From: Sorangium cellulosum
Lineage (GTDB): Bacteria > Myxococcota_A > Polyangia > Polyangiales > Polyangiaceae
Assembly: GCA_020720045.1 (NCBI GenBank)
Contig: DYPH01000040.1
Coordinates: 1-42,944 of the forward strand
Length of the DNA stretch: 42,944 nucleotides
Direction of reading: 5' to 3'
Shown here: piece by piece, positions 14,498 through 27,159 of the stretch
Numbering within the stretch: the stretch's first letter is position 1
Layout of the letters: every line of letters starts with the position of its first letter
Position numbers and translations under genes: made by a program
The notes under the pieces: generated by a model
The model's input: the letters and a program-made list of their open reading frames with translations, nothing else
Database searches by the model: none
What the model was told of the DNA's origin: nothing

Positions 14498-14579
14498 CTC
14501 GTTCGAACTAGCTCCGAAGAAAGGTCGATGTCGCAAAATGCCTCATCGGCCTTTTCGCGACCTCGACTAGCCTGCGCCG

Positions 14580-16310
14580 ATGCGCTTGTTGGCAAGAGCG
14601 CGCCAAGGTTCCGCGTGGGGACCGGCGCGTTGGGGATACGCTTGGCGGGGGCTGGTGGTGACGGCAGCGGTGGCTGCGTGTGGTCCCAAGGGCGCGCCTG
14701 ATGCGGCGTCTCCGGCGGCGGCACCGACGACAGAAGCTGTCGCAAAACCGGCCACTTCCAAGCGGCTGACCTTCTACGAAGCGCTCGCCGCCGCAAAAGA
14801 CGGCGACCTGTTGCCAGAGCCCGACGAGACCGTCGTGAACCTGGAGGCGGAGAGCTCGGCGATCGAAAAGAAGATCCTTGAAGCGCGCGATTGGCACTGG
14901 AAACAACGACCCACCGTCGAGTGGTACACGGAGACGACCTTCTTCGCGGCTGCCCGGGCAGTCCTCGCAGAGCGGTTTCAAGCGACCAACGTGACGGTCA
15001 CCGACCACTACCTTCGCGAAGGGATTGTTGCCGTCTACGACGGCGAACGCCACCGCATCGTCGCCGCGCGGGAACCCCATCGGCGGGAACGGCGCGCGAA
15101 AGACCTCTCCGCGGCGCTCGCTGGCGCGTTTGCGGAAGCGGCAGTAGCCGACGCCCTCGGCCATCTACAAATCCCAGACAAGTTTGATGTTGCGGGAGAA
15201 ATTGCGATGTCTCTGCGCGCCGCCGATGCCAAAGCGGTCACGCGCGCTGCGATGGGGGAGGGCCCCTTCACGAGTTACCTGAAGGGGGATTGGCACTCCC
15301 ACTACGGTGCGGCCGCTGGCCAATCCTTCGACCTCCGCCAACTCGCAGTGCGTGGCGGGATGGGGGCGAGCGGCTTCGAGGCGGTCGGCACAGCGAAGAC
15401 GCCGGCGGAGCGTCGTGCCGCCCTTGAGCGGATCCATGCAGCCCACCCGAAAACCTTTGCCCACTTTGTCGCACCGACCGCGTCTCGGGCCGACGCGCAG
15501 CCGTTTCTGCCGGTACGCTTCAAAGCACCCGGACATTTTTTGACACAAATTCAAGACCCTGGCCGCGAGCTCCTGCTGCGCGTGCTCCTTTGGGTAGACG
15601 ACCCAGCCCCTGTCGACACGGCGGGGGCCCTCGTCGCCGTACGCGGAGGCGCCGTATTTGCGAGTGCCGGGGACAAGGTCGACACGGCGGTCTATGTCTT
15701 GGCCGATGGCCCGAGCGGAGCGCTTTTGAAAAAAGCAATTGAAGCCTCAAAAGTAGGCGCACTCCATCCCATCAAAAATGGCCACCTAGCCATCCTCGGC
15801 CCCGGGAAAGCATCAACTGTCCCTGCAGACTTTCTACCTTTCACGGGTCTGACACCCGACGACACACCGCTCCCTCGAGTACCACTCCCGAAGCAAGACT
15901 ATTGCGACAGATTGGAGGTCAAGGTGCTCGGAACTGGGCGAGTACTCAACCCGAAAGTGCCGTGCGGCCGAAGTAAAGAAGACTCGTTCTGGTTTTCTGC
16001 GTGGGTTGAAGACACTCCCTTCAGCGAGACGACGCCGAGTGCGGCTGACTTGATGGAAGATCGAAGAGATGAGGGCTCTACGAGCGCCGTTTACCGGCGT
16101 TTTAGCGCGCGAAACAAAGTGGGATATCTAGCAACAACCCACTCGGACTCAAGGCGCATTACGTTTGGCTATTTGCCTCTTTGCGACGGAAAGAAGTCGC
16201 TCCACCTGGGCCTTCGGGAACCGACGACGGGTGCCCCCATCAGCGACCCTTTTTCAACGCTCGTCTGGACGGGAATCGAAGAAACCTTTTGTGCCAAGGG
16301 GAAACCATGA
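14580..16310 (+). CDS. Cassette lipoprotein 1, degenerate metallopeptidase-like, function unknown
   Basis: This is the first of four tandem related genes. It encodes 576 residues with an unusually long leader: a charged stretch (1-25), then LVVTAAVAAC with the lipobox Cys34, then an Ala/Pro/Thr spacer. It shares with the other three an early block (QRPTVEWYTETTFFAAARA, 109-127) followed by GIVAVYDGERHRIVAAR (148-164). In a widespread family of bacterial zinc-peptidase-like proteins, the motif order is an F-Y-D-P-x-x-x-R-I/L-x-V-R strand, then a helix with H-E-L-x-H-A. Here the matching helix (LSAALAGAFAEAAVADALGH, 177-196) has no HExxH, so it is probably not a protease. This parallel is inference. 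The 3' third, from about 15735 to 16170, uses more A/T-ending codons than the rest. The stop overlaps the next start (ATGA, 16307-16310). It is the most divergent of the four. Confidence 0.7.
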   Translation: MRLLARARQGSAWGPARWGYAWRGLVVTAAVAACGPKGAPDAASPAAAPTTEAVAKPATSKRLTFYEALAAAKDGDLLPEPDETVVNLEAESSAIEKKILEARDWHWKQRPTVEWYTETTFFAAARAVLAERFQATNVTVTDHYLREGIVAVYDGERHRIVAAREPHRRERRAKDLSAALAGAFAEAAVADALGHLQIPDKFDVAGEIAMSLRAADAKAVTRAAMGEGPFTSYLKGDWHSHYGAAAGQSFDLRQLAVRGGMGASGFEAVGTAKTPAERRAALERIHAAHPKTFAHFVAPTASRADAQPFLPVRFKAPGHFLTQIQDPGRELLLRVLLWVDDPAPVDTAGALVAVRGGAVFASAGDKVDTAVYVLADGPSGALLKKAIEASKVGALHPIKNGHLAILGPGKASTVPADFLPFTGLTPDDTPLPRVPLPKQDYCDRLEVKVLGTGRVLNPKVPCGRSKEDSFWFSAWVEDTPFSETTPSAADLMEDRRDEGSTSAVYRRFSARNKVGYLATTHSDSRRITFGYLPLCDGKKSLHLGLREPTTGAPISDPFSTLVWTGIEETFCAKGKP

Positions 16311-17974
16311 AGCGTCTCCACTCGCGTCCTCTTTGGGCGCTCGCCCTCGCGGCTGGTGTAGGCTGCGCCCCCGCGGCAAAGACGCCTGCCGACTTCGCGC
16401 CGCTTACGGTGTCGGAGCGCGCCGTCGAGGTGAGCGTCGCGACGGTCGTATTCCCTCGGGAAGATCAGACGTTTGACGTCGCTGCACTTGAGCCTGCGGT
16501 GCGCGATGCCGTCGCGCGTGTACGTGGGCGGCCGGTGACTACCCCCATTGAGTACGTCGATGATACTGATTTCATTGCGCGTACGAGGCCGGCACTTGAG
16601 AAAATGTATACGAGCAAAGAGCTCGTATTCACGAATCGCTTTATCGAGCGGGAATGGGTCGCCGTCGGGGAGGCCGATCGCATCGTCGCTCGCCGCGAGG
16701 TGCGTGGCGTTTTCTGGTCACCGCGACTTGTGGCGAGTCTCCTCGCTACGGCCCTGGTCGAGTCGAGCCTTGATGTTCGCGAAGCCGATCTCCCTGAATT
16801 TCATCAACTATTTAAACACGGCGTCGCCCGATTCTACGGGGACGCCGCCGCGAGTGTGATTGCGGGTATGCCTCCGCATCGCGCGCTGTTTCGCGTAAGT
16901 TTGGAGCGTGAGTTCATGGGGCATGGGTTCGAAAGTCCTTATTTCGGCCCCGGCTCGAACGTGTCCGATGCTGGCGTAGCTGCGCGCGCTTCTGCGGAGC
17001 GTTTTTGGGAAGAGGCAGCTCGCGACTTTGCTCATGCGCTCTATACACTCGGCGGAAATCGCCTCGTTGAAGCCGCGTTGATCGACCCGCCGACAACCTT
17101 GCGTGAACTCAGTGTGCTCGAGGCCTACGCCAGCGGCGCCCCTCCGAGCACACTCCGTCGGAACGACGGCGGCGCGTTCGCAGCGATCGGTCCGACCGTC
17201 ACTGCCGGCTTGTTTGGTGTCGCCCGGCTTGCAGGGAGCGTGGCCGGTGGGGGCGGCGCCAGCGGTCCACAGGGAGCCAAACCGATGGTCGTTGTTGCAG
17301 AATTCTACCGAGAAGCGCTGCCCGATACCGCCAACTTGGTCAAGGGCGGCTTCATTCGGACGAAAACGCTGCCGAGTGGAAACGCGCTCGTCGCATTCAG
17401 CAACGAGAGCGCCGCGGACGCCGAAGCGGTCTTGGCGGTGATGGAGTCGACCCCGGGCCCCCGGCGGCGCCGCTGGAACTACGCCCCCAACGTGATCCTA
17501 CGGACGAGCGCCCACGAAGCGTGCGCGTATGGGCGCGTCGGCGGTAAGTACCACTCCGCATGTTCGGACACCGAGTACTCGTCAGAATCAAAAGGATTTT
17601 CTGCACTATTCCGCGGAGTCTCCCCTGTCGATACGACCGCCGTCGCACTCCGTCTGTTCGCGTACTCCGATTCGGAAGGCAAGGTGCCACCACTCCTCGC
17701 CGAAGGGGCGCGCACGGTGCGGATGCGGCGGACCGAGCCGGCCCTTGACACCCGCTTAACCGCCATTTGCGGCGGCACGGCGGTCGCGGTGGTCGTTGAT
17801 GGCGTCAGCTGCGACGGCGATGCGTGCAAGGAAATCGTGAAGGCAACCACGGCGACGTTGGGCGTGCCGCCGCCGGAGGACGTCCCCACGTTCTGCGCGG
17901 AACTCGCCTACGAACAGGCGCACGACCTCCCCGAGCCCCAGATCCCCCCCGGTCTCCTCGTCGCGCGCCCATGA
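16307..17974 (+). CDS. Cassette lipoprotein 2, degenerate metallopeptidase-like, function unknown
   Basis: The protein has 555 residues with a clear lipoprotein signal: MKRLHSR, hydrophobic LWALALAAGVG, Cys20. The start is the ATG in the ATGA overlap with gene 1; an upstream in-frame start at 16181 would lie inside gene 1. It aligns well with gene 4: RGRPVTTPIEYVDDTDF (74-90), WVAVGEADRIVARR (117-130), a helix LVASLLATALVESSL (141-155) where related zinc peptidases would carry HExxH, GVARFYGDAA (172-181), PPHRAL (189-194), and LYTLGGNRLVEAALIDPPTT (245-264). The last block resembles the G-G-x-x-x-V-x-x-x-x-x-D-P-P-x-S-T-E-Q segment of that peptidase family. A Gly-rich loop separates it from a C-terminal domain ending DLPEPQIPPGL. 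Gene 4 ends with the matching DLPAPVVPPDL. The role is unknown and the location is probably membrane-anchored periplasmic or cell surface. Confidence 0.72.
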   Translation: MKRLHSRPLWALALAAGVGCAPAAKTPADFAPLTVSERAVEVSVATVVFPREDQTFDVAALEPAVRDAVARVRGRPVTTPIEYVDDTDFIARTRPALEKMYTSKELVFTNRFIEREWVAVGEADRIVARREVRGVFWSPRLVASLLATALVESSLDVREADLPEFHQLFKHGVARFYGDAAASVIAGMPPHRALFRVSLEREFMGHGFESPYFGPGSNVSDAGVAARASAERFWEEAARDFAHALYTLGGNRLVEAALIDPPTTLRELSVLEAYASGAPPSTLRRNDGGAFAAIGPTVTAGLFGVARLAGSVAGGGGASGPQGAKPMVVVAEFYREALPDTANLVKGGFIRTKTLPSGNALVAFSNESAADAEAVLAVMESTPGPRRRRWNYAPNVILRTSAHEACAYGRVGGKYHSACSDTEYSSESKGFSALFRGVSPVDTTAVALRLFAYSDSEGKVPPLLAEGARTVRMRRTEPALDTRLTAICGGTAVAVVVDGVSCDGDACKEIVKATTATLGVPPPEDVPTFCAELAYEQAHDLPEPQIPPGLLVARP

Positions 17975-19797
17975 AAACATCTGTTTTCTTAACTTTTTTT
18001 CGTACTCGGCTTCTCCCCTTCGCAGCGATGGCGGGCTGCGTGCATCCTGCACCTGTTGTACGGGTCGCGGCGGCGACCGACGCGCTTGCGAGCATCCCCG
18101 TCGGGGCGCCAATCCCGTGGAACGTCCCCGTCGTTGAGCTGCCGTCCCTCGAAGCGGAGGTGGAGGCGGCCGTTTTGCGTGCGCGTGGCGCCGTTTGGGG
18201 CGGCACCTTGTCGGCCCGTTGGAAGCATCGACCAGCTATTGAGTATTACGAAGATCCACTCTTTGAAGATGCTGCTTTCTCAGCAGCCTCAGCGATTCAC
18301 GTGCCGGCGGATATGTCGATCACCGTCTCTCGCTTCCGTATTTTTCGCGAGATCGCTTACTACGACGCGGCGAGTCACCGGATCCTCGCACGAAATACTA
18401 TTCACGATTCACCCTGGGTGACTCCCGCGATCAAACATAGCTTTGCCCGCGCGATCGCGACAGCGCTCGCCTTCGATGAGCACGGCGCTGTGGTCGACGA
18501 TAACGACGACGACACCGTCGCCCGCTACCGCCAGGCGCTCCGCTTTGCGGAAGGGGCGCGGACGGCAGAGGCGGCCTTCCCGAGCGGAGCGGGACGCATT
18601 TCTCTTCGTGATTTTGGGCGTTTACCGTCGCCCAAACCGGCAAGCGGAACCCGCCGCGGCGACGTCGAAGATCTCCTCGGCCTGACCTGGGGCCCGAAGG
18701 CGGCGACCTACAAAGGGGGGGAGTCGTCGCTCACCGACGCGCTCTTTGACGACTTCCTCCGTCGAGAGGCCGGGCGGCTCCTCGCGGCGCCTCGCGACGC
18801 CGCCGATGAGCGGGCCCTCTACGCCGATCCACCACGCACGCTGACGACCGCCCTCGACCGCGCCGCGTGGAGCGCGCCCCCAAAGACGAAGATGACGGCG
18901 AAGGACGGGTGGACCATCTCCACCTTTCACGACGGGAGCTACGAAGCGGCGCTGGTTCTGGCGCTTGGAAGCCTTGACGAAGATTCGGTATTTCGTTGTG
19001 CACGTGCCGTGCGCGGCGTCCACTACGCGGAGATGCCCGCAGCACGTGACGGGGCGGGCGATGCAGCCCGAGAGGGCGCCCGCTGTTATGTGTATTCTAC
19101 AGATTCTGTCGGCGAGGCGGGCGCTCATTGCCTTCAACGCGCGCTGGAGGGGCTCGGCTGGACTCCGGTAAGCTGGTCGACGGCGACCGCCCGCGTCGTG
19201 TGCAGCAACGTCCCGAACGGCTTTGCGCAGGCTGCCGAACAGGCATTGAGCGTAACTGCGTCGCCGAGCGATGCGACCGCGGCGATCGCGCTGGCGGCCC
19301 CCCCCGCGAGCGATCACGGCTGGATCCCGGTGGCGGCGGATCGGAGCCTCCACGCGGCGCTTCGACCACCGGGGGGGCTGCCGGCGTCGTTCAGCGAGGG
19401 GAAGTGGGCGACCGGCGGCCACTCGACGAACGTGCTCCTTCGGAAGGAGTCCCTCGACGAGGCACTCGCGCGAGCTGCGGGAATTGCTGAACTTTTCGAC
19501 AATCAACTCGGCGAAAGCGAGGAGACGAAGAAGGAAACAAGGCAGGCGATGCACGGCTATCCGGCGATGCCGACGGTGCTTCGCGATCAGCTCGTCGCCT
19601 TCGGCCATCCCCTCCCCGCCGCTCGCCTCCGCCGCTCCTGGCTCGCGACCGGGCGCCGCCTCGACGTGTGGGTCGCCCCGTTCGCGGGCGCGATGCTGAC
19701 GGTGATCGTCCGTCACGCCGCCGAAACCGAGACCGACGACCGCCCGGAAATCGGCACCCCCGATGCCGCGAGCGTCGCCCCGCGAGGTCGCCCATGA
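17971..19797 (+). CDS. Cassette lipoprotein 3, degenerate metallopeptidase-like, function unknown
   Basis: The 608-residue protein starts at the ATGA overlap with gene 2. Its signal is MKTSVFLTFFRTRLLPFAAMAG, then Cys23. It shares KHRPAIEYYEDPLFEDAAF (85-103) and IAYYDAASHRILARN (128-142) with genes 1, 2 and 4. The helix where a HExxH would be expected (HSFARAIATALAFDEHG, 156-172) lacks it, and a DP-P block is kept as RALYADPPRTLTTALD (281-296). The linker after the helix has an acidic run (DDNDDDT). The C-terminal half, with the segment YSTDSVGEAGAHCLQRALEG, is not clearly shared with the others. No membrane segment beyond the signal. Tight coupling on both sides means the four proteins are likely made in fixed proportions, and they may form a complex; that is inference. 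Confidence 0.7.
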   Translation: MKTSVFLTFFRTRLLPFAAMAGCVHPAPVVRVAAATDALASIPVGAPIPWNVPVVELPSLEAEVEAAVLRARGAVWGGTLSARWKHRPAIEYYEDPLFEDAAFSAASAIHVPADMSITVSRFRIFREIAYYDAASHRILARNTIHDSPWVTPAIKHSFARAIATALAFDEHGAVVDDNDDDTVARYRQALRFAEGARTAEAAFPSGAGRISLRDFGRLPSPKPASGTRRGDVEDLLGLTWGPKAATYKGGESSLTDALFDDFLRREAGRLLAAPRDAADERALYADPPRTLTTALDRAAWSAPPKTKMTAKDGWTISTFHDGSYEAALVLALGSLDEDSVFRCARAVRGVHYAEMPAARDGAGDAAREGARCYVYSTDSVGEAGAHCLQRALEGLGWTPVSWSTATARVVCSNVPNGFAQAAEQALSVTASPSDATAAIALAAPPASDHGWIPVAADRSLHAALRPPGGLPASFSEGKWATGGHSTNVLLRKESLDEALARAAGIAELFDNQLGESEETKKETRQAMHGYPAMPTVLRDQLVAFGHPLPAARLRRSWLATGRRLDVWVAPFAGAMLTVIVRHAAETETDDRPEIGTPDAASVAPRGRP

Positions 19798-21503
19798 CCG
19801 TGCGAACGTGTTGTATTCTTTCGACGTTTGTTGCTCTCGCCGCCTGTGCGCAGGGCGCGCGAGCACCGGCGCCTGTCCGCCCGCCGGCGGCCGCAGCGCC
19901 CGTATTTGCGCGGGTGACCGACGAGGTGCCGAGGCCTATCGAGCTCACCCCGCTCGTAGCGACCGCCGTCGCCGGACTTTCCCGCCTTCGTGGCAGCCCG
20001 ATCGCGCCGCCGACCGTCGAAGCGCTTTCGGACGAAGCCTTCTACGAGAAGGTCCACCCGCTCCTCGAAGAGACCTTTCGCGTAAAGGGGTGGACGGCGA
20101 CGCGCCACCATATTCTCAATGATTTCGTTGCTTTCGGGAGCACCGATGGGAAGACGCTCTGGGTACGCAATCGCGTCGAGGGGCCGACGTGGTCCGAGGC
20201 CGACGTCCTCGCACGCCTCGGCGCCGCAATCATGGTGACTCAGCTTCCGGCGGGGCCTCCGCGCGAGACAAACCTGGAAAAAATGTCGGCCGAAGCGCTC
20301 CGCCGCGGGTTCGCCCGGTTCTATGGCACTGCGGTGAGGAAGCTCGCGTTCTTGCCGCCCCAGCGCGCCCTCCTGGACGTCGCTTCGCGCGATGGAGAGC
20401 TGCCGCGCGGGAGCGAGGATCGCGACTATTTCGGCGACACCGATTTCAAGAGCTTCGGCCTCTCCTTGGAGGAGGTTCGCATCTGGGAAGAGGCGGGATT
20501 CCGCCTCGCGATCGATGCTTACGGTGGCGGTGGGAACGCGCTCGTCGACCAGGTCCTCCGTGATCCTCCACAAACCTTCCGCGAAGCTTCGGGCCTAAAC
20601 CCTTGGAATTACGTTGGTGGTGAACTCGAAGTGGAGGCGAGCCCGCCGGGCTACCGCATCGAACGCGTGGTCGCCCTGTGGCTTCAGCTCCAGCTCACGG
20701 ACGTGGCCGAGTCAACATTCGCGACCGCCGGCGACATTTGGGGAACCGCTGAAATCACGGAAGAGAAGTCGGGACTTCAGGCATTTGTCTTTAGCGTTCG
20801 TAAGTCGGATCGGTCGAGCATTGAAGATCGCCTCCGAGAGGCCGGTGCTGTGGTGAAGGACGCGCCAAGTGAGAGTCTCATTTTCGCGGCAGGCGGGCAG
20901 GCGGCGCTGGAAATGCTCGAGAGAGTGCCGACAAAAGTGTTCTTTCTCCCGGGCACCTACCGAGCTAGATTCAAGCGCCCTTTTCTCACCCCCAATCGCC
21001 CAAGCGCGAGAGCCGCTTGCGACGCCATACTTGGCGAAGAAAAAGAAGCAAAACCGAAGTTTACCTCCGTCTGCTTTGCAACCGTCGACGTCGATAAGGG
21101 CGTGACCGGTATGCAATTTACCGCAGAATCAATTGTTGCTTCGATGGCCGACATTCGCCGTAGCCTTACCCGCACAACCCCCTTTGAACTCCTCGACCGC
21201 CCCGTCCCCCACCTCCCCGCGGGGAGCCGGGCGATCACCTTTCGCGACGTCGGGCAGCCGTCGGCGCCAGCGCCCCCCCTTTTCACGTTCCTGGTCACGC
21301 CGATCTGCGAGGGTGAGGCGGGCGTTATCGTTGCCCACAAAGCGGAAGGGCCGAACCTTGCGGCGGAGATGGCCGCCTCCGACGCGTTCTTGGCAGCGCC
21401 TCCGAAGGTATCGCTTGAGACGGTGTGTCGGCTCGTCTCGAGCGAGCGCTTCCGCGACCTGCCGGCGCCGGTCGTCCCGCCCGATCTGGAGCTACTTCAC
21501 TGA
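19794..21503 (+). CDS. Cassette lipoprotein 4, degenerate metallopeptidase-like, function unknown
   Basis: This is the last cassette gene, 569 residues. The signal peptide is CCILSTFVALAA, then Cys18. The start is the ATG in the ATGA overlap with gene 3. Its shared blocks match gene 2 best: RGSPIAPPTVEALSDEAFY (66-84), FVAFGSTDGKTLWVRN (111-126), helix DVLARLGAAIMVTQL (137-151) with no HExxH, GFARFYGTA (172-180), PPQRALLD (188-195), AYGGGGNALVDQVLRDPPQT (242-261), and the end DLPAPVVPPDLELLH. Conservation of surface and scaffold motifs without zinc ligands suggests a binding role rather than a catalytic one. The last 12 bases overlap the 3' end of the opposing small lipoprotein gene. A stretch near 20930-21130 is richer in A/T-ending codons. 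Confidence 0.72.
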   Translation: MTVRTCCILSTFVALAACAQGARAPAPVRPPAAAAPVFARVTDEVPRPIELTPLVATAVAGLSRLRGSPIAPPTVEALSDEAFYEKVHPLLEETFRVKGWTATRHHILNDFVAFGSTDGKTLWVRNRVEGPTWSEADVLARLGAAIMVTQLPAGPPRETNLEKMSAEALRRGFARFYGTAVRKLAFLPPQRALLDVASRDGELPRGSEDRDYFGDTDFKSFGLSLEEVRIWEEAGFRLAIDAYGGGGNALVDQVLRDPPQTFREASGLNPWNYVGGELEVEASPPGYRIERVVALWLQLQLTDVAESTFATAGDIWGTAEITEEKSGLQAFVFSVRKSDRSSIEDRLREAGAVVKDAPSESLIFAAGGQAALEMLERVPTKVFFLPGTYRARFKRPFLTPNRPSARAACDAILGEEKEAKPKFTSVCFATVDVDKGVTGMQFTAESIVASMADIRRSLTRTTPFELLDRPVPHLPAGSRAITFRDVGQPSAPAPPLFTFLVTPICEGEAGVIVAHKAEGPNLAAEMAASDAFLAAPPKVSLETVCRLVSSERFRDLPAPVVPPDLELLH

Positions 21504-25911: not shown

Positions 25912-27159
25912 ATGCGCAGTCGTTTCGCCGTCCCGGCCCTCGCCTCCCTCCTCCTCGCCTGCTCGACGGAGACCGCCAGTTCCTTCAAGAAATCGGACGG
26001 CGGAACCACCAACGACGCCGGCTTTGAAGAGCCGGTCGATTCCGGCCTCGAGATTCCGCAGGGGGATGGTGGCACGATCGCGTCGAACACGCCGATCGGT
26101 ACGGCGACCGGAACTGTCTACGTCCCGTCGGGAGATCTCTCCATGCCCGGAGCGCTTGTGTATCTCACGGCGACGGAGCCGGCCGATATTCCGGCGGGGA
26201 ACTTCTGCGACAAATGCGTCGACGTCACGAGCATCCCCGCAAATGGTCTTAGCAAGACCAACGGATCGTTTTCTGTACCGGTGTTCGCAGCGGGACCACA
26301 CTATCTCGTGGTTCAAAAAGGCGCATTTAGACGCGTCACAAAGGTCACGCTGAAGGCGGGAGACAATCCATTTCCGACGAGCGCGACAACGTTGCCAGGA
26401 ACGCTGAACCGCGCGGCAGGAGAGATCGTACCGCGGATTCTCGTCGTCGATTCTGACGGAGTCGACCCCGTTACCGACGCGCTTTCTCGGCTCGGAATCG
26501 ACGTGCCGAGCGCAGACGTGAAGCAGCCGTCTGACGCCGAGGTTCTCTTCAGGAATGCCACTAACCTCGCAAAATATCAGGTAATCTTTCTTCCGTGCTC
26601 GGCGTTTGGGGTGACCTGTGGGCCCAGTCAAGCGCTCGACGCGACGATTAAGAGAAATCTCAAGACGTTCGTACAGAATGGCGGAAAGATCTACGCAGCA
26701 GATTTTTCCTATGAATTTGTGAAGCAAATCTGGCCTGGCTACATTGACTGGCCCGACTACGGTTCGTCATGGGTCCGTAACGACATCGGCCAATCCTGCG
26801 GCGATTCCTACGATGCTAGGCCCACGTGGGTGGATCAAGGCCTTGGAGACTGGATGCGTTTCGTAGGAAATGCGTCGGTTACGCTCGGCGGAAACTGGTC
26901 GAAAATGAACGGTGTAAAGACCGTCCAAGGGCGCGACGTGAACGGCAACGCGACACCGGTCACGCCGAAGGTCTGGGTCAAGGCGGCTCGTGATGGGTCA
27001 ACCTACCCGGCAACCGTGAGCTTTCCCGATACCTGCGGTCGCGTGATGTTCAGTACCTTCCACGCGGAAGGCGGAGCTGCTCATCTCGCGCAGGAGCAGG
27101 CGCTCCTTTACGTCTTGCTCGAAGTAAATACGTGCGCGGGCGGCGTGGTCGACAAGTAG
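25912..27159 (+). CDS. Lipoprotein with Ig-like and glutamine-amidotransferase-like domains, function unknown
   Basis: The 415-residue protein has a lipoprotein signal (VPALASLLLA, then Cys17) and a Gly/Asp/Ser/Thr-rich spacer to about residue 50. The next part (55-150) is a beta domain with a GTATGTVYVPSGDLSMPGA start, similar to carboxypeptidase-regulatory folds, and a CDKC pair. From about 165 to 300 comes an alpha/beta domain: PRILVVDSDG, KYQVIFLPCSAFG, LKTFVQNGGKIYAADFSYEF. This strand-nucleophile-elbow pattern and the later VMFSTFHAEGG resemble ThuA/class I amidotransferase-like folds. A full Cys-His-Glu triad cannot be fixed from the sequence. Such combined proteins are seen as surface proteins in myxobacteria. 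The gene ends at the bidirectional terminator 27181-27208. The middle part (about 26200-26950) is richer in A/T. Confidence 0.75.
   Translation: MRSRFAVPALASLLLACSTETASSFKKSDGGTTNDAGFEEPVDSGLEIPQGDGGTIASNTPIGTATGTVYVPSGDLSMPGALVYLTATEPADIPAGNFCDKCVDVTSIPANGLSKTNGSFSVPVFAAGPHYLVVQKGAFRRVTKVTLKAGDNPFPTSATTLPGTLNRAAGEIVPRILVVDSDGVDPVTDALSRLGIDVPSADVKQPSDAEVLFRNATNLAKYQVIFLPCSAFGVTCGPSQALDATIKRNLKTFVQNGGKIYAADFSYEFVKQIWPGYIDWPDYGSSWVRNDIGQSCGDSYDARPTWVDQGLGDWMRFVGNASVTLGGNWSKMNGVKTVQGRDVNGNATPVTPKVWVKAARDGSTYPATVSFPDTCGRVMFSTFHAEGGAAHLAQEQALLYVLLEVNTCAGGVVDK

Follow-up and report, generated by a model that had tools for sequence, protein, structure and literature searches.

A Four-Gene Cassette of Probable Pseudopeptidase Lipoproteins in Sorangium cellulosum

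Introduction

Four consecutive genes in a 42,944-nucleotide stretch of Sorangium cellulosum DNA (contig DYPH01000040.1, hereafter the window) raise the question of what a set of related lipoproteins does once the zinc-binding motif of its apparent peptidase relatives is gone. The genes, here called g1 to g4, were first singled out from the nucleotide sequence alone, and this sequence-only reading proposed that four dead-peptidase lipoproteins form a surface binding or sensing complex. Our follow-up analysis favors, with a probability of roughly 0.6, a genus-specific operon of four pseudopeptidases that would bind or regulate at the cell envelope without catalysis. The between-species comparisons of selection and divergence below draw on a single sister species (G001), a public Myxococcales metagenome-assembled genome (JAAFHJ) with a fragmented assembly.

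Organization of the cassette

The cassette spans 14580-21503, and the description of four consecutive genes with 4-base overlaps holds at each junction, where the stop of one gene and the start of the next form an ATGA. The features of this region are as follows.

14519..14555, forward strand: hairpin with A/T-tract arms 3' of prfC; fold -23.4 kcal/mol, z -4.4 versus shuffles
14580-16310, forward strand: g1, predicted lipoprotein-like pseudopeptidase of 576 aa
16307-17974, forward strand: g2, predicted pseudopeptidase lipoprotein of 555 aa
17971-19797, forward strand: g3, 608 aa, the most divergent of the four
19794-21503, forward strand: g4, predicted pseudopeptidase lipoprotein of 569 aa

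The gene upstream of the cassette is prfC, and the hairpin that follows it is likely the prfC terminator. The same inverted repeat lies 3' of prfC in the sister species, and because the hairpin between prfC and g1 is conserved, g1-g4 are probably their own transcription unit. A simple terminator scan did not list the hairpin at 14519..14555, and no promoter match was obtained on the + strand. Downstream of g4, on the opposite strand, lies a beta-galactosidase-like gene, named from its translation.

Each protein has the N-terminal lipobox cysteine that had been claimed for it, at residue 34 in g1, 20 in g2, 23 in g3, and 18 in g4. The PROSITE-type lipobox pattern is passed by g1, g2, and g4. 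The g3 lipobox is the weakest of the four and passes a relaxed pattern only, failing the strict one because of Arg13; its sister-species orthologue passes the strict pattern. By these signals, all four proteins are probably exported and lipidated.

Kinship among the four proteins

Comparison of the four proteins with one another revealed the significant similarity on which the sequence-only reading depends, for g3 chiefly through g1. The full-length paralogues g2 and g4 are 27% identical over 525 columns (blastp E 6e-24), and an N-terminal part is common to g1 and g3 (blastp E 4e-6). When the entire genome of origin was searched with a g2/g4 profile, g1 was recovered at E 2e-5. After removal of signal peptides, hhalign gave 93% for g1 versus g2/g4 and 92% for the N halves of g1 and g3, with only 33% for g3 versus g2/g4, such that g3 is tied in mainly via g1. 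These results indicate that the paralogy of g1-g4 is beyond chance and that the direct link of g3 to g2/g4 is weak. The conserved blocks that had been listed are present as described (RFYGxA, PPxRAL, and DLPxPxxPPxL in g2 and g4; DPPxT in g2-g4), with the exception of the first segment, P-x-x-E, which in g2 reads P-x-E. Four C-terminal cysteines recur at similar spacing (13-20, 69-79, and 36-42) in g1, g2, g4, and the sister g2, and a set of polar and aromatic residues is invariant in g2, g4, and the sister g2 (Asp86, Arg129, Trp137, Tyr177, Arg192, Trp234, and Glu236 in g2 numbering).

Relation to the intact HExxH peptidases

The sequence-only reading likened the cassette proteins to a bacterial family with the signature HELTHALQDQ...DPPxSTEQ. 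A HELxHALQD pattern search matched 42 of 59 related genomes, with no match for the backward pattern used as a control, and the HELxHALQDQ peptidase family is nearly universal in the bacterial family to which the organism belongs (102 of 108 genomes). Its members occur in a short form and in a long form of ~600-660 residues with an additional C-terminal domain. Against Pfam DUF6782 (PF20573, cut-off 27 bits), one long form passes with 29.9 and a short form falls just below with 24.7. None of g1-g4 matches DUF6782 at E up to 10, and the four sequences gave nothing useful in searches of Pfam and NCBIfam.

For an unbiased search of the 108 genomes, g2, g4, and sister g2 were combined into one profile. 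It gave five matches beyond the genus with E no higher than 0.009, of which four are long forms with HExxH; the fifth was judged spurious, an apparent false frame. Signal-free halves of g2/g4 were also aligned by profile-profile comparison (hhalign) with 25 long forms, with 30 column shuffles and a reversed profile as controls. The N half matched at 97.3% (E 2.2e-11, 211 columns, score 78; shuffles at most 18, reversed 15) and the C half at 87.8% (E 3.4e-6, score 48 versus at most 17 in controls), and the alignment is colinear in both halves. These results indicate that g2 and g4 descend from the HELxHALQDQ...DPPxSTEQ peptidase family. The same ancestry is likely for g1, on indirect evidence via g2/g4. 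Taken alone, g1 and g3 each reach about 4% against the intact peptidases in hhalign, which is not significant, and a g1/g3 profile recovered itself and one marginal match only from the 108 genomes, so that the case for the ancestry of g3 is indirect. The proposed kinship thus stands for g2 and g4, probably extends to g1, and reaches g3 by way of the others.

Two intact paralogues are kept on other contigs of the same genome, one with HEIVHALQDQ that is ATGA-coupled to rpe and one with HEVTHALQDQ beside an rsgA-like gene. The own-genome paralogue L084, considered as the nearest active relative, was supported neither by hhalign nor by the tree. A sequence search of the PDB found no solved structure related to the intact form and, with g2/g4, gave one weak match (E 0.04) outside the peptidase half. 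No paper was found in a literature search for DUF6782.

Several observations concern the intact proteins themselves. At 22 of the 32 loci checked (L098 8810-11025, L016-L041), the gene immediately downstream of rpe, in the same orientation, encodes the short intact HExxH lipoprotein, making the two a conserved pair. The HEVTHALQDQ paralogue (L097 8344-9750) overlaps the rsgA-like gene by 8 bases, and synonymous divergence from the sister species is 0.30 for this rsgA-linked paralogue, twice the 0.16 of the rpe-linked copy. A long-form relative in another genome (L077 in G129) reads HAIEH in place of HExxH, with both His kept and the catalytic Glu replaced, which is possibly an independent inactivation. 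The long form has expanded independently in genome G115, where at least four copies are spread over separate contigs.

Loss of the catalytic residues

The absence of HExxH from all four proteins, as first claimed for the helix, was confirmed by a sequence scan, which found no HE..H over the whole length of g1, g2, g3, or g4, and by alignment, which places the former catalytic sites as follows.

15114-15128, forward strand: former HExxH site of g1, ALAGA, residues 179-183
16736-16750, forward strand: former HExxH site of g2, SLLAT, residues 144-148
18439-18453, forward strand: former HExxH site of g3, SFARA, residues 157-161
20211-20225, forward strand: former HExxH site of g4, ARLGA, residues 140-144
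16835-16837, forward strand: former EGDA site of g2, FYGDA, Tyr177
20322-20324, forward strand: former EGDA site of g4, FYGTA, Tyr177

The sister g2 reads EALAA at the former HExxH site, and the helix is placed with less certainty in g1 and g3 than in g2/g4. In almost every intact member, the third zinc ligand, the Glu of EGDA, lies ~32-35 residues past the first His. Tyr takes the place of this Glu (FYGxA) at a distance of 33 in g2, 37 in g4, and 30 in the sister g2. At firmly aligned positions, none of the zinc ligands is left and the general base is missing as well, and g1-g4 are predicted to be unable to act as zinc peptidases.

Predicted structure

The overlay on a zincin fold that had been proposed as a check yielded a mid-confidence model with zincin-type matches, set against low scores. 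The N half of g2, folded with paralogues, reached a pTM of 0.68, with pLDDT mostly 70-95 over residues 11-120. In structural comparison of this model, 48 of 50 rows were zincin-type by their titles, many of them redundant entries, with Z of 4-6 that are individually not significant. The zincin-type rows include M1 aminopeptidases, PPEP, M4, M13, collagenase, YbeY-type proteins, and toxin-domain zincins. Foldseek with the same model found nothing under E 0.1 (best E 0.4), and an AlphaFold model of nearly full-length mature g4 from three sequences was unusable (pLDDT 41). The g2 N-half model therefore weakly resembles zincins, which is agreement and not proof.

Distribution and origin

At the thresholds used, no dead cassette was found outside the genus in 108 genomes of the bacterial family or, in a g2/g4 search, in 184 genomes of the order. 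Among the genomes searched, the cassette is thus restricted to the genus. The alternative that close homologues with intact HExxH occupy the same place, which would make g1-g4 decayed proteases, also found no match: 28 other related genomes have no HExxH-family gene closer to prfC than 1.5 kb. In the tree, a single branch (98% SH-aLRT) separates all 7 dead sequences from the rest, a placement that depends on long branches flagged by the program. This arrangement fits one loss followed by duplication, and a single loss before duplication is tentatively proposed.

Selection and the divergent g2

In the sister assembly, contig breaks lie just past prfC and within g2, leaving g1 unseen there. The g3 and g4 orthologues are about 85% identical and retain their frames, signal peptides, cysteines, and ATGA overlaps. 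With dN/dS of 0.20 for g3 and 0.23 for g4 (at dS 0.34-0.39), purifying selection on these two genes is clear from the sequence comparison and supports the retention of the pseudopeptidases as working genes. These ratios are 2-5 times those of the two intact paralogues (0.045 and 0.087; both kept in both species), which points to relaxed constraint. prfC has 0 amino-acid changes between the two species.

A different picture emerges for g2, which is 31% identical to its sister homologue in protein and gives no nucleotide alignment. DNA identity is mostly 93-97% in the flanks and 82-90% in g3/g4, and the blastn alignment of this contig to the sister species begins at 17910.

17939..17974, forward strand: last 12 codons of g2, identical in the sister species by DNA comparison; apparent exchange breakpoint at the g2/g3 junction

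The difference in g2 looks like replacement by recombination, and a misjoin at the 36-base identical stretch is possible. Elsewhere in the window, a lipoprotein-like gene at 25912-27159 is 52% identical to its sister counterpart, with much of its surroundings at 92-95%.

Possible functions

In the reading that we favor, the ancestor would be an HExxH peptidase with a lipid anchor, belonging to the HELxHALQDQ family; its catalytic Glu and its three zinc ligands would all have been lost, and the dead gene would have been duplicated in tandem to four. The copies would have retained the domain order of the family and the cysteines of its C-terminal domain, and would be exported, probably lipidated, and translated in a coupled manner. 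In g2 and g4, the conserved patch of RFYGxA and PPxRAL may sit where the zinc once was, and at the cell envelope the remodelled old cleft could bind a protein or peptide, acting as a receptor, scaffold, or regulator. We infer the binding role, the lipidation, and the co-assembly.

The main rivals to envelope binding are partnership with the active paralogues and recognition between strains. By analogy with the dead subunit of processing-peptidase pairs, g1-g4 might be dedicated to regulating the genome's two active paralogues, whether as inhibitors, as decoys, or as activating partners. Both active copies are retained in both species and evolve slowly, and dead members of metallopeptidase families often regulate their active cousins (PMC11266112). 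However, the active copies reside on other contigs, beside rpe and rsgA and not near g1-g4, and most relatives without the dead cassette carry active copies, which therefore do not need it; we consider this role unlikely, if well worth keeping in view. Distinctly less probable is that the proteins are polymorphic lipoproteins for recognition or competition, with the exchanged g2 marking self in the manner of other variable surface lipoproteins of myxobacteria. The divergence island at g2 has a sharp edge at the g2/g3 overlap, and breaks in the sister contigs flank the g1-g2 region, as strain variation can cause. Yet only two genomes are involved, one of them fragmented, the 36-base identical join could be an assembly error, and the region offers no immunity-like gene, no C-terminal domain swap, and no NCBIfam match. 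Slimmer still are the odds of an envelope recognition locus of dead peptidases in which the four co-assemble and exchange of g2 alters binding specificity between strains.

The remaining explanations fare worse. A new catalytic site inside the old cleft would account for the invariant residues from Asp86 to Glu236 in g2, g4, and the sister g2, but the RFYG and PPxRAL patch is absent from g1 and g3 and all four have a small, hydrophobic helix where the active site was, and we regard such changed chemistry as improbable. Decay into peptidase genes without function is highly improbable: every catalytic residue is lost and evolution is faster than in the intact paralogues, but all four frames are intact, and sister g3 and g4 keep frames, signals, Cys, and ATGA at dN/dS of about 0.2. 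Equally hard to credit is a chance resemblance between peptidases and unrelated lipoproteins. Although Pfam and NCBIfam have no match and g3 alone is unsupported, the profile matches are colinear in both halves with controls, and the unbiased search brought back HExxH proteins.

Comparison with known systems

The closest counterparts of the cassette are the putative metallopeptidases of DUF6782 (PF20573) and the HELxHALQDQ lipoproteins of the same bacterial family, which have a lipobox and an N-terminal domain order like those of g1-g4. Their GG-x-x-x-V...DPP-T segment and C-terminal IPIC...PPVC-like pair are also found in the cassette proteins. In contrast to these single genes, the cassette has lost HExxH and the EGDA Glu and consists of four coupled copies. 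Metallopeptidase pseudoenzymes are familiar from dead ADAMs, FtsHi, and the alpha subunit of the processing peptidase, and pseudopeptidases are established in general as binding or regulatory proteins (PMC11266112). Like g1-g4, these pseudoenzymes have lost zinc ligands and the general base and have been kept by selection, but they belong to unrelated families, whereas the cassette is bacterial, predicted to be lipid-anchored, and has its four paralogues in a single operon. The cassette would thus represent a bacterial set of lipid-anchored pseudopeptidases, a four-gene expansion under selection with active cousins in the same genome, and would provide a natural comparison of dead and active members for an unstudied peptidase family that is near-universal in this bacterial family.

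Among myxobacterial proteins, the nearest comparison is with SitA/SitB, the polymorphic lipoprotein toxins (PMC5562445), which are likewise lipoproteins encoded by overlapping genes with variable members. The cassette differs in having neither a toxin domain nor a downstream immunity gene, its genes abutting one another. Homology to the peptidase family extends through the C half of g2/g4 and leaves no distinct C-terminal toxin domain of the SitA type, and in place of a C-terminal swap, g2 diverges over nearly its whole length. If the exchange of g2 is real, the variable surface loci of myxobacteria would gain a new type.
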